From a bacterium (lineage in GTDB: Bacteria > Coprothermobacterota > Coprothermobacteria > Coprothermobacterales > JAADFF01): 7,869 bases of DNA. Numbering within the stretch: position 1 is the stretch's first letter; each line of letters begins with the position of its first letter. Under the pieces are notes generated by a model, which worked only from the letters and a program-made list of their open reading frames with translations, had not been told where the DNA came from and did not search any database. The position numbers and the translations under genes were made by a program. The stretch spans positions 1 through 7,869 of the forward strand of contig JAMORD010000083.1 in assembly GCA_027063755.1 (NCBI GenBank), given 5' to 3'. This document shows, one piece after another, positions 2 through 7,844 of the stretch.

Positions 2-670
2 CTGCTCCTCTATATCGTATTTAAACGTTATCTGTTTGGCCCACTAGTCAACATTGTTCGTAAGAAAAGAGAAGAATGGCAAAAGAAAGATGAAGAGCTA
101 CGCAAACGAGAAGAAGAGATAAAACAGGCATATGCCAAACTTGAAGAAGACAAAAAGAGATTAAAAGCTGAACTTGAGGCTATGAGAGAACAAATGGAAA
201 GAGAGATAGAAGAAGAAAAGAAAAAATTACTTGAAGAAGCTCAGAAAAAGGCTGATACAGTATATAAGCATACAGTCAATGCAGCACATGCCGAGGCAGC
301 CAGAATTATAGAAGAGGCAACGAAAGAAGTAGGGAAAATTATCACCATATCAACAACAAACATCTTAAACAACTTTCTGGGTACAAGCAGCCAAGTATGT
401 CTTCTAAAAATGCTATTTAAACGATTCTCCGGTGATATTAAGCAATATGCTGCCAAAGCCGGTAAGGGTATTATCTTAGAGTTGCCGTGGTATGTTCTTC
501 CTGAAGAAGAAAAAGAGATTAGAGAGAGTTTAGAAGAGATGGGAGTTTCTATCGCAGGCATAAAAGTTAATGAAGATATCATATCTGGTTTCAGACTGGT
601 TTACAAAGACTATGTCCTTGATGCCACATTGAATAGATATATTTCGGAAGCTATAGGTGATAGAACATGA
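2..670 (+). CDS. atpF: F-type ATP synthase b subunit with delta-like C-terminal region (5' partial)
   Basis: Peripheral-stalk subunit of an F1Fo ATP synthase, anchored in the membrane and holding the F1 head static. The frame is open from the first base, so the true start lies upstream; 222 residues are visible and probably only the first part of the membrane helix is missing. Visible residues 1-10 are the end of that helix, followed by the FGP proline typical of b subunits. Residues about 18-110 form a highly charged Lys/Glu coiled coil. Residues about 120-222 are not b-like: they end in a pattern (VNEDIISGFRLVYKDYVLDA) that matches the C-terminal part of subunit delta. This fits the b subunit of alternate (N-type) F-ATPases, which carries such a tail; mycobacterial b-delta fusions are longer. 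No separate delta gene precedes alpha. An internal ATG at 182 is not the start, because the coiled coil runs through it. The TGA stop overlaps the alpha ATG (ATGA). I am confident of the b part and fairly confident of the delta-like part. Confidence 0.93.
   Translation: MLLYIVFKRYLFGPLVNIVRKKREEWQKKDEELRKREEEIKQAYAKLEEDKKRLKAELEAMREQMEREIEEEKKKLLEEAQKKADTVYKHTVNAAHAEAARIIEEATKEVGKIITISTTNILNNFLGTSSQVCLLKMLFKRFSGDIKQYAAKAGKGIILELPWYVLPEEEKEIRESLEEMGVSIAGIKVNEDIISGFRLVYKDYVLDATLNRYISEAIGDRT
655..660 (+). promoter_or_regulatory. Ribosome binding site for alpha
   Basis: AGGTGA six bases before the alpha ATG, lying inside the last codons of the b gene (Ile-Gly-Asp encoded by ATAGGTGAT). Together with the ATGA overlap it points to coupled translation. 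Confidence 0.7.
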
Positions 671-4331: not shown

Positions 4332-4670
4332 ATGAAACTGAAACTTATTATATCTTCACCTGAAGGGGTTATATTTAATGGAGAAGCAGACTTTATATCA
4401 CTAACACTGGTAGATGGAGAAATTGGTATACTACCCAGAAGAGAAAATTTTATCGGGGCACTTGATGAAGGTCCTATTCGCATAAAACCACATGGTAAAA
4501 CGCTCTTTGTTCCAGGTGGATTGGTAATGAAAACGGGACAAGAGGTACACCTCACGGTACCCTTTGCCATAGAAGCCCAAAGCTATGAAGAGTACTGGGA
4601 TATTTTAGAAAAGAAATATATGGAAGCCGACGAGCGTATAAAGAAGCTGAAAGAAATAAACATTGGATAA
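4332..4670 (+). CDS. atpC: F-type ATP synthase subunit epsilon, short form
   Basis: Foot of the central stalk, linking gamma to the c-ring. The start ATG directly abuts the beta TAA, with GAGGTG six bases upstream. The first 85 or so residues form the epsilon beta-sandwich: the opening MKLKLIISSPEG, then DGEIGILPRRENFIGAL and VPGGLVMKTGQEV. At 112 residues it is shorter than the usual 130-140. The end (about 85-112) has room for only one charged helix instead of the two-helix hairpin that lets epsilon inhibit ATP hydrolysis in many bacteria. The ILPRRENFIGAL segment resembles alternate-type epsilons. The stop codon touches the stop of the convergent ABC ATPase gene. It is the last gene of this operon. 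Confidence 0.93.
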   Translation: MKLKLIISSPEGVIFNGEADFISLTLVDGEIGILPRRENFIGALDEGPIRIKPHGKTLFVPGGLVMKTGQEVHLTVPFAIEAQSYEEYWDILEKKYMEADERIKKLKEINIG

Positions 4671-5444
4671 CTACAAAGACAAAAGCACTGAATATATGTG
4701 ATCCATAATATCTGCAAACTCTTTGCTATCTTTATCTCTTGGATGTGGCATATTCACATCTACTATATCAAGAAGTCTTCCAGGTCTACGAGACAATACA
4801 TACACTCTATCAGAGAAATATACAGCCTCTTCAACATTGGTTGTTGTAAGTAGTATGCTCTTAACAACAAGCTGTTTTTCTAACCAAAGGCGAAGGAACT
4901 CTTCCCTAAGATCTTCTGCCGTTAGAGAATCAAGCGTTGTAAAAGGATCATCCATGGCGATAAGCTCCTCTTCAACTGATAAAGCCCTTGCAAATGACAG
5001 TCGTTGGCGCATAGCAAGAGTAAGCTCTCTGGGATATGTGTCTTCAAAGGAATCAAGCCCCATCAGGTCTATATATTTTAATGCAGTTCTAATACGCTGG
5101 CGAAGGGGTATACCTTTAGCCTCTAAAACAACCTCTATGTTTCCTTGAACCGTTAACCATGGAAGAGAAATAGGTTGCTGGGGAATAAGTGGCACAATGT
5201 GCTTTTCACTATCAAGGGGCTCTCCCCTATAAAAAATCTCACCTGCAGTAGGTTTTTCAAGCCCAACTACCATATTGAGAATACTAGTTTTACCTGAACC
5301 TGTAGGACCAAGTATAGATACGATCTCGCCCTCTCTTATCTCAAACGATACAGAATCAAATATAACAAATTTTTTTCCCTTCTCCTCAACAACCTTAGAT
5401 ATATTCTCTGCTCTCAATATACAGCTCTTCTTACCACTCACCAC
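4671..5444 (-). CDS. ABC transporter ATP-binding protein (nitrate/sulfonate/taurine-type) with degenerate motifs
   Basis: Nucleotide-binding subunit expected to sit on the cytoplasmic side of the permease encoded just upstream. Its 257 residues match the ATPase half of proteins that normally continue into an AAA-associated domain; here the chain stops just after the family junction HPRDKDSKEFADIMDHIYSV. Walker A GPTGSGKT (46-53) is intact, and a Q-loop (IPQQ, 87-90) and the D-loop LD (171-172) are present. The signature LSGGM is LTLAM (141-145), the Walker B MDEP is MDDP (164-167, Asp166 in place of the catalytic Glu), and the switch VTH is TTT (200-202, no His). The frame reads cleanly on both sides, so this is not a frameshift. 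GTG 5444 is chosen because GGAGG lies seven bases upstream; the gene overlaps the permease by 14 bases. It may bind ATP with weak or no hydrolysis, or pair with another ATPase. Substrate is unknown. Confidence 0.9.
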   Translation of the reverse strand: MVSGKKSCILRAENISKVVEEKGKKFVIFDSVSFEIREGEIVSILGPTGSGKTSILNMVVGLEKPTAGEIFYRGEPLDSEKHIVPLIPQQPISLPWLTVQGNIEVVLEAKGIPLRQRIRTALKYIDLMGLDSFEDTYPRELTLAMRQRLSFARALSVEEELIAMDDPFTTLDSLTAEDLREEFLRLWLEKQLVVKSILLTTTNVEEAVYFSDRVYVLSRRPGRLLDIVDVNMPHPRDKDSKEFADIMDHIYSVLLSL

Positions 5445-6963
5445 GCCTATACCTCCGCTCTGCCAGGTTATAAAGAGGCTGCCATACCAACCTATTCAAA
5501 AGAACAACATATACAGTCATAATAATAGCACCCCACATCATTAGTTTGGGGTTAGCTGTAAGATTTCTTACAAGAAATGAACCTATACCAAAAACAGCAA
5601 GTACCTCACCAGAAAATACCATGTATTCGGCAACAACAGAAGCGTTCCACGCTCCACCCCATCCCGTAATACTACCTGTTATCAACGATGGGAAAATAGC
5701 AGGGATAAATATCGTGCGTACAAACAGTCCCCCGCGAATCTTAAATACCTGTGCTAAATTTCTTAATGACATAGGAATGCTAACAGCACCTAAAAGTACA
5801 TTGTACATGATATACCAAACCATAGCCGTTACATAGATAAATATAGTCCCAACTTCCATACTACCCAAATATCTCACCATAATATGAATAATCGGAGGGA
5901 AAAAGGCACTAGCAGGAATACTGCTAAGTACGCCAATAGATGTGATAAATATATCAACAACTCTGGCAGACTCTTCCTTATGCTTAGAAACCCAGTAGCC
6001 GGGAACAAGAACTAACACCAAACTTATCAAATAGGCAACAAATATACGTAATGTTGTTATTCCTAAAGCTGGGAATATCTCAGATATACCCTGTGGCACA
6101 GGAGAGATAAGCCATATAACAAACTCATAGCCTCCATACAGGGCATATAGGCCAAAAGCAAAAAGTAAAGACTTTACTATAATCTTCACCCATTTTTTCC
6201 TAAAGAATGTCCATAAACCATATACCGTCCCATAGAAAAGTTGTTCAAAGCGTAATCTATATGCAATTTCCTCTATCCACTCAACAAAATGAGGCTTATA
6301 TACATCTATAGGTTCATAGTTATACTCAAATAGTTTAGCCCACTTCCGCAGTGAGTTCCATATAGCCATTTGCATAAACAAAACAATTGATACAAGCACA
6401 ACAAGTGTCAAGACAAGTCCACCAATATTGCCCTTTTCCAAATTGGTAATAATCTCTGTACCTAAACCTGGTAGTTTATACTCTTCTGATCCTACAGAAA
6501 ATATCTCAGATGCTATCAGAAAATACCAGCCATTAGCCCACGACATCATACTGTTATAAACAAGTCCGGGAATCATAGCAGGAATATAAAAATACCTAAT
6601 GCGAGTCAAAGGCGGAAGCTTATAGGCATCGGCAAGATACATCAAATCTCTTGGAAAAGTCTTCACTGTCTCATAGACTGAAAAAGCAAGATTCCACACT
6701 TGACATGTAAAGATAAGAAAGATGGATGCCATCTCTACTCCAATGCGACCACCACCACCGAGTTTCACAAAGAAAAGTATTGCAACAGGAAAGAAAGTAA
6801 CAATAGGAACAGATTGAAGAATATCTATGAGAGGAATCATCCACCTCTCTCGTCTTTTAGAAGAGGCAGCTGCAAGACCATAGGGAACAGCAAAAAGAAG
6901 TGATAGCACATAGGCTATCAACATACGCAAAAACGACCATCCTGCAGCTGCCAATAGACTCAC
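5431..6963 (-). CDS. ABC transporter permease with two fused BPD_transp_1 (binding-protein-dependent transport) domains
   Basis: Inner-membrane permease of 510 residues in which two transport domains are joined in one chain. The first half (about 1-205) has hydrophobic segments near 10-32, 44-66, 78-98, 140-157 and 180-203, with an EAA-type coupling loop at 111-132 (ADAYKLPPLTRIRYFYIPAM onward). A charged linker (about 205-260) follows. The second half has segments near 262-287, 298-322, 335-362, 370-394, 425-447 and 474-497, and a second EAA-type loop at 403-425 (VFKIRGGLFVRTIFIPAIFP). The halves are not symmetric: the first lacks the helix that opens the second. GTG 6963 is the only reasonable start. 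GGGGAGG lies ten bases upstream and an in-frame TAA at 6967-6969 blocks a longer product. The fusion is characteristic of the family that pairs with AAA-associated-domain ATPases. Substrate is unknown and no binding-protein gene is seen. Confidence 0.92.
   Translation of the reverse strand: MSLLAAAGWSFLRMLIAYVLSLLFAVPYGLAAASSKRRERWMIPLIDILQSVPIVTFFPVAILFFVKLGGGGRIGVEMASIFLIFTCQVWNLAFSVYETVKTFPRDLMYLADAYKLPPLTRIRYFYIPAMIPGLVYNSMMSWANGWYFLIASEIFSVGSEEYKLPGLGTEIITNLEKGNIGGLVLTLVVLVSIVLFMQMAIWNSLRKWAKLFEYNYEPIDVYKPHFVEWIEEIAYRLRFEQLFYGTVYGLWTFFRKKWVKIIVKSLLFAFGLYALYGGYEFVIWLISPVPQGISEIFPALGITTLRIFVAYLISLVLVLVPGYWVSKHKEESARVVDIFITSIGVLSSIPASAFFPPIIHIMVRYLGSMEVGTIFIYVTAMVWYIMYNVLLGAVSIPMSLRNLAQVFKIRGGLFVRTIFIPAIFPSLITGSITGWGGAWNASVVAEYMVFSGEVLAVFGIGSFLVRNLTANPKLMMWGAIIMTVYVVLLNRLVWQPLYNLAERRYRRGEW
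5452..5456 (-). promoter_or_regulatory. Ribosome binding site deciding the ABC ATPase start
   Basis: GGAGG on the minus strand, seven bases before GTG 5444 and inside the permease coding end. It favours the first of two consecutive GTG codons as the start. Confidence 0.7.
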
Positions 6964-6996: not shown

Positions 6997-7485
6997 TCAC
7001 GGCTGCTCATCCTCTTCTGTTTCAAGGCACACCTCATCTTCATCGCCGTCATACCATATAATCTCTGCAAATCGTCCCCAATCAAGAACATTTTTGCTGA
7101 TAATATCTTCTTCTTCTTCTGTGAGATCAGAACCTATCATTCTATCAAATTCTTCTCTGTCTATACAATTTTCTGGCACACCTCTAAGAACAGACAATAT
7201 CTTCTGATATACAGGGTGATTTTCCAGTACATCTCTCAGTATCTTCTTTCTTGTCTGCAGGTCTGCCTCGGCAAACTTCTTACCCAAGTCCGTCAGGATA
7301 ACATCACCTTTCTCTACTTTTACAAATCCAAACGACTTTGCCGTTTCTATAATGCCTAATATCTCATCAAGGGAAAGATGCTCTTCTGTTGACAACTTAT
7401 ATGCATCCATAACACCATCTTCATCAAGCAGTATTTCTAAAAGCCCTAAAACATGTCCCACATCTGATCGTGGCAAACCGTCCAT
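6997..7485 (-). CDS. Stand-alone AAA-associated C-terminal domain protein
   Basis: Acidic protein of 162 residues with no signal peptide or membrane segment, so probably cytoplasmic. It resembles the domain usually fused to the C-terminus of nitrate/sulfonate/taurine-type ABC ATPases (the AAA-associated domain family). Shared features, numbered from the GTG at 7491, are the opening GHVLGLLEIL (12-21), the winged-helix-like stretch IETAKSFGFVKVEKGDVIL (48-66), TDLGKKFAEADLQTRKKI (67-84) and, near the end, LDWGRFAEIIWYD (136-148). The tail is strongly acidic (EDEVCLETEEDEQP). ATG 7485 is preferred over GTG 7491 because GGAGG at 7493-7497 is seven bases from the ATG and only one base from the GTG. 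It follows the PilZ gene by 14 bases and precedes the permease by 33 bases. I infer that it acts in trans on the ATPase encoded at the end of the operon. Its biochemical role is not known to me. Confidence 0.85.
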   Translation of the reverse strand: MDGLPRSDVGHVLGLLEILLDEDGVMDAYKLSTEEHLSLDEILGIIETAKSFGFVKVEKGDVILTDLGKKFAEADLQTRKKILRDVLENHPVYQKILSVLRGVPENCIDREEFDRMIGSDLTEEEEDIISKNVLDWGRFAEIIWYDGDEDEVCLETEEDEQP

Positions 7486-7492
7486 CTTCACC

Positions 7493-7499: not shown

Positions 7500-7844
7500 T
7501 TATTTAGATTCCGTCTCTACTATATCAGAAAAAACCCGAAATAACTTAGATGTGTGTTCTAAAAACTCAACACCTAAGATGTCTTTTCTCTCACCTCTTC
7601 TACGCCATACTACGCGTCCTAAAATATCCTCCACTTTTTTTCCAACTTTGATGCGCAATATTATCTTATTCAGATGTATATCATCGGGCGATGCCCATAT
7701 AATACGACAACCAGCCCATGAAATATCATCCATGATACCTTCATAAAACCGATCTCCACCAATTGGCCTAAATAAGACAGGTAGGGCTATAGAATACCTT
7801 TCAGCCTTGCGTTTATCAATCTTAGCAGCCTGTGAGAGAGGCAC
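7500..7844 (-). CDS. PilZ-domain protein, probable cyclic-di-GMP receptor (5' end uncertain)
   Basis: Small protein of 114 residues made almost wholly of one PilZ domain, a family that binds the second messenger cyclic di-GMP. The two binding motifs are visible: RKAER (12-16, RxxxR) and DISWAG (40-45, D/NxSxxG), separated by 23 residues. The later strand GRVVWRRRGERKDILGVEF (76-94) fits the usual barrel end. Both binding motifs are intact, so ligand binding is plausible. The GTG at 7844 has GGAGG 13 bases upstream, which is rather far. The frame stays open to the window edge (upstream residues read NGGYVTL), so the protein could be longer with an N-terminal part outside. It is the first gene seen of the leftward operon and may regulate, or simply be co-transcribed with, the ABC module. 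Confidence 0.85.
   Translation of the reverse strand: MPLSQAAKIDKRKAERYSIALPVLFRPIGGDRFYEGIMDDISWAGCRIIWASPDDIHLNKIILRIKVGKKVEDILGRVVWRRRGERKDILGVEFLEHTSKLFRVFSDIVETESK

Follow-up and report, generated by a model that had tools for sequence, protein, structure and literature searches.

The window analysed here, a single 7.9-kb contig, encodes an ABC transporter ATPase (the nucleotide-binding domain, NBD, of the complex) with degenerate catalytic motifs. We observed this sequence state, its conservation in a second species, its restriction to one lineage, a rate acceleration in the ATPase only and the structure of the surrounding operon. With modest confidence, we read the encoded system as an ABC complex that is dominated by ATP binding or turns over very slowly, with a conserved pseudo-ATPase NBD. 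The contig comes from a draft genome of 1.5 Mb that is 88% complete (G000), and the second genome of the genus (G001), also a draft, is from a separate species and is 93% complete; the degenerate ATPase is known from these two drafts of one genus. Both organisms are probably heat-loving, judging from their kinship with Coprothermobacter.

Genomic context of the operon

The plus strand of the window carries F1 ATP synthase genes (ORF list, Pfam), on which a minus-strand set converges that encodes a PilZ protein, an AAA_assoc_C protein, a fused permease and the ATPase (Table 1). The ATPase gene starts within the 3′ end of the permease gene, with an overlap of 14 bases, and the two are therefore probably translated together.

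Table 1 Minus-strand genes of the transporter region, with positions in the window
Feature	Position	Strand	Evidence
ABC ATPase (NBD), 257 aa, GTG start	4671..5444	-	ORF, Pfam, alignment, AlphaFold2 model
Permease, ~510 aa, two fused BPD_transp_1 domains	5431..6963	-	ORF, Pfam
AAA_assoc_C protein (PF09821), own gene	6997..7491	-	Pfam 2.5e-29
PilZ-domain protein, truncated at window end	7500..7844	-	ORF, Pfam; full length 201 aa in G001

The PilZ gene lies on the same strand as the AAA_assoc_C gene, 8 bases upstream of it. We weighed this adjacency as a possible c-di-GMP input to the transporter; it may instead be inherited synteny, because in Coprothermobacter-type genomes the PilZ gene is also nearby but is divergent and heads a chemotaxis operon. 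The convergent ATPase and epsilon genes have abutting stop codons (4671 and 4670) and zero intergenic space, as they do in G001. The F1 epsilon protein itself (4332–4670, plus strand) has only 112 amino acids and matches the N-terminal beta-sandwich domain alone; it scores 47 bits against an NCBIfam epsilon cut-off of 67 and seems to lack all or part of the C-terminal helical domain. An ORF at 2–670 (plus strand), open at its 5′ end, runs from a subunit-b N-terminal region to a subunit-delta-like C terminus, by eye a possible b–delta fusion.

The ATPase, the permease and the PF09821 protein co-occur in exactly the same 12 of the 60 genomes searched. The permease of this family is normally a single polypeptide with two BPD_transp_1 domains, and in the permease of the window both coupling (EAA-like) loops can be aligned. 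AAA_assoc_C is fused to the C terminus of the ATPase in some relatives and is encoded by a separate gene in others. The system in the window has the features of AAA_assoc_C-linked ABC transporters: an adjoining PF09821 protein, a fused two-domain permease and no binding protein beside them. No gene for a substrate-binding protein was seen adjoining the operon in G000, in G001 or in the relatives whose operons were examined. For one distant relative, an in-frame TAA splits the permease gene (G022:C128:10326-11831; L065/L090), which lies on a different contig from that of its ATPase.

The ATPase falls below the curated cut-offs of the NCBIfam equivalogs for the named subfamilies Nrt, Cmp, Tau, Ssu and SaoA (SaoA was best with 165 bits versus 360; ntrCD reached 139 versus 291.8), and we found no name for the AAA_assoc_C-linked transporter in the literature searched. 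A literature search on PF09821/AAA_assoc_C returned nothing informative, and the role of this domain in ABC transporters appears to be undescribed in the literature that was searched. The predicted structure of AAA_assoc_C has two winged-helix units (pLDDT 72, moderate confidence, from an alignment of two sequences). Foldseek gave no match to this model at E < 0.001, and VIA-align returned single winged-helix domains with Z of about 8–9, which is suggestive only.

Degenerate motifs of the ATPase

Pfam ABC_tran (PF00005) matches the ATPase at 3.7e-24 (86.3 bits versus a gathering score of 25), and the AlphaFold2 model has an intact NBD fold (pLDDT 92.8). At the level of sequence, the deviant signature weakens the claim of ATPase activity and leaves the ABC ancestry untouched. 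We read Walker A as GPTGSGKTS (46–54), the signature as LTLAM (141–145), Walker B as LIAMDD (MDD at 164–166), the D-loop as TTLD and the switch as LLTTTN (T202).

The original prediction, that LTLAM, MDD and TTT are degenerate, was borne out for all three motifs in the ORF and by alignment to 88 other distinct relatives, five of them from the same order. An LSGGQ-like signature, with SGG in 88 of 88 relatives, is absent from this ATPase: S142, G143 and G144, each of them invariant across the 88, are replaced by T, L and A. The catalytic Glu at position 166 is likewise found in 88/88 relatives and is Asp here, and the Thr at position 202 has no counterpart among them (His 77, Asn 10, gap 1, Thr 0). 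The list of three, correct in all its entries, was nevertheless incomplete. The A-loop aromatic is also gone (V19, compared with F in 70, Y in 16 and H in 2 relatives; V19 aligns with a Tyr of CmpD), and the Q-loop segment carries F88P (PQ for FQ), S85P and L93S. The replacements are shared by the second species of the genus; the five relatives of the same order have a canonical signature and Glu. A switch His-to-Asn change (VTNQ, ITND) occurs in L079, L152, L153, L041, L045–L047 and L049–L051, all of which retain the signature and the catalytic Glu.

Residues kept in the ATPase are the Walker A K52, the Q-loop Q89, the Walker B D165, the D-loop D172, and Q147, R148 and R153. As far as residue identities tell, the cradle for the ATP phosphates and the Mg site remain, and the adenine stack, the trans signature contacts, the general base and the switch are altered. 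Among the 31 nearest canonical relatives 66 columns are invariant, and 18 of these are broken here; in a leave-one-out test, no canonical sequence broke more than two. The broken invariants comprise 8 of the 17 ATP-site positions versus 10 of the 49 others (P = 0.04), and because this enrichment is only modest, we do not claim that the changes are confined to the active site.

Conservation and rate of change

The G001 ATPase carries every deviation of its G000 counterpart at 93.4% amino-acid and 82% nucleotide identity. Between the two, dN is 0.045 and dS is 1.42, giving a dN/dS of 0.032 (from NG86 only, with dS near saturation); the corresponding NG86 ratios are 0.045 for the permease and 0.026 for AAA_assoc_C. 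Even the codons of the motifs differ synonymously between the species, for example CTT ACT CTT GCT versus CTG ACC CTT GCA. The deviations are thus common to a second species despite saturated synonymous sites, dN/dS is low and the motif codons have changed synonymously; on these grounds the degenerate motifs are a fixed, constrained state, neither decay nor error.

Relative-rate tests compared this genus with its canonical Coprothermobacter-type sister from the same order, using four outgroups. The ATPase has accumulated excess change (51:27, 44:27, 45:18 and 48:23; χ2 of 4.1–11.6), with no acceleration in the permease (56:46 and similar, χ2 < 1) or in AAA_assoc_C (χ2 < 2.5). The most economical account has the ATPase changing in a burst in the genus ancestor and being tightly constrained thereafter, with the permease and the partner domain unchanged in pace. 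The earlier view that these motifs represent selected change rather than decay is supported by the presence of the same motifs in G001, a dN/dS of about 0.03 and an acceleration in the ATPase only.

Comparison with known systems

The closest solved NBDs are NrtD and CmpD of the cyanobacterial nitrate and bicarbonate importers (PDB 8w9m, 8wm7, 9u9z, 9ua1), to which the ATPase is similar by sequence (CmpD, 2e-39) and, through its AlphaFold2 model, by fold (TM about 0.85); the permease halves resemble NrtB/CmpB. Unlike the ATPase studied here, NrtD and CmpD have consensus motifs (in CmpD ISGGMKQR, LDEPF and MITHD), and the 9ua1 chain has LDQPF at the Glu position. Canonical AAA_assoc_C-linked transporters, from Coprothermobacter-type genomes and other bacteria, share the operon, and their ATPases (50% identical in the Coprothermobacter type) all have LSGGM, MDE and VTH or nearly so, from which this ATPase deviates. 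The NrtD and CmpD systems also differ in using a second NBD, NrtC or CmpC, and in having the permease halves as separate proteins, whereas here there is one NBD gene and a fused permease.

In CFTR and SUR-type ABC proteins, ATP binding serves gating or regulation and not pumping (for CFTR NBS1, PMC7756269), but these are ABCC exporters of eukaryotes in which one site is canonical, and their homology to this ATPase is limited to the NBD. The degenerate sites of heterodimers (TM287/288, TAP and the ABCC family) share with this ATPase a Walker B Glu-to-Asp change, a deviant signature and an altered switch His (PMC5216877, PMC7756269). In TM287/288, the site that has an Asp in Walker B and a deviating signature is reported to be hydrolysis-incompetent, and this signature apparently cannot make the contact needed for full closure (PMC5216877). 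A changed signature is common to all degenerate sites in humans, hydrolysis at E-to-D sites seems far too slow to sustain transport, and ABCB1 with both Walker B Glu residues changed to Asp retains residual activity only (PMC7756269). In TM287/288, TAP and the ABCC family, degeneracy affects one site only and the cycle is driven by the other, a consensus site; by contrast, both sites of the homodimer expected here would be degenerate. We found no publication describing a bacterial homodimer in which both sites are degenerate, although our coverage of the literature was partial and absence from it is no proof.

A proposed binding-dominant complex and its alternatives

The complex that we favour would be of type I and Nrt/Cmp-like, built from a single permease with two fused domains, an AAA_assoc_C winged-helix partner and, presumably, the NBD in two copies; in this genus its NBD would have been rebuilt into a conserved pseudo-ATPase. 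The NBD retains the phosphate-binding Walker A, the Mg-coordinating Asp and the sensing Gln, and it has lost the aromatic that stacks on adenine, the glycines of the signature, the catalytic Glu and the His of the switch. A single ATPase gene that overlaps the gene for a permease with fused halves makes an NBD homodimer the default assembly. As all elements lie in one gene and no partner NBD was found, such a homodimer would have two degenerate sites, which favours a binding-dominant or very slow complex. Of the explanations in the original prediction, a slow or regulatory ATPase and ATP binding without cycling both agree with the sequence, which does not tell them apart. The two poor sites foreseen by the original prediction thus stand as the default; the homodimer itself is something that we infer, as are the loss of turnover and the regulatory role, and it could be wrong. 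At both composite sites, ATP binding would be weak to moderate and hydrolysis extremely slow or absent, so that ATP occupancy or the partner domain, not repeated hydrolysis, would set the state of a gated pore, a sensor or a very slow transporter. Slow turnover is possible, given that S142T keeps a hydroxyl and E166D a carboxylate; with the A-loop aromatic lost, even ATP binding could be weak, or another nucleotide could be used. We entertain only tentatively the idea that selection made both ATP sites of a homodimer non-hydrolytic, leaving a gated pore or a sensor that is switched by ATP occupancy and works with the winged-helix partner.

Compensated motifs could in principle leave an active ATPase, with Asp as the base, re-positioned loops and enough turnover for ordinary transport. 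The E-to-D and S-to-T changes are conservative, purifying selection is strong, the permease evolves at an ordinary rate and D-type sites seem still to be hydrolytic, although much slower (review PMC7756269). We consider this reading unlikely, as four further site elements are altered together (G143L, G144A, H202T and F19V) and none of the S, G, G and E changes is tolerated in the 88 relatives. A decaying gene or an assembly artefact, to which the 18 of 66 broken invariants might point, is scarcely credible given the clean frame, the identical deviations in the genome of a second species, the dN/dS of 0.03 and the high-confidence fold. Loss of the A-loop and hydrolysis residues, together with the predicted tandem winged helix of the partner, would also suit an NBD that no longer serves a transporter and has become a nucleotide-independent structural or DNA/protein-linked scaffold with AAA_assoc_C; the strict retention of the Walker A Lys, Walker B Asp, Q-loop Gln and D-loop Asp and the normal evolutionary rate of the permease make this very improbable.

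Heterodimerization with a consensus ATPase encoded elsewhere, as the original prediction suggested, would leave one site working, or neither, because each site needs elements of both subunits. Precedents for degenerate sites in the literature searched are all asymmetric, with a consensus partner present (PMC7756269), NrtD and CmpD pair with NrtC and CmpC, and G000 is only 88% complete. However, the operons examined in canonical relatives each contain just one ATPase gene, and no consensus partner was found in the assembled sequence of either draft. G001, at 93% completeness, has no other NrtD-like ATPase, its best others being C69 (407 amino acids, MalK/UgpC-type) and C86 (332 amino acids). 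C86 was rejected as a partner as it has its own permease, and its G000 counterpart, C106, has its own binding protein as well (C106/C86 are likely of the tungstate/TupC type); C133 of G000 was rejected as an importer with its own permease and binding protein. Within the limits of draft genomes, the suggestion of a partner elsewhere is unsupported, and we regard a heterodimer as improbable.

Implications

In the degenerate-site literature searched, sites that do not fire are always paired with one that does. If the favoured reading is true, a conserved, doubly degenerate homodimer would separate the effects of ATP binding from those of hydrolysis in a natural complex, for which the canonical orthologue from the same order, 50% identical, provides an internal control. 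Because evolution has preserved the altered motor almost exactly, it is probably a switch or a very slow motor and not a broken gene.
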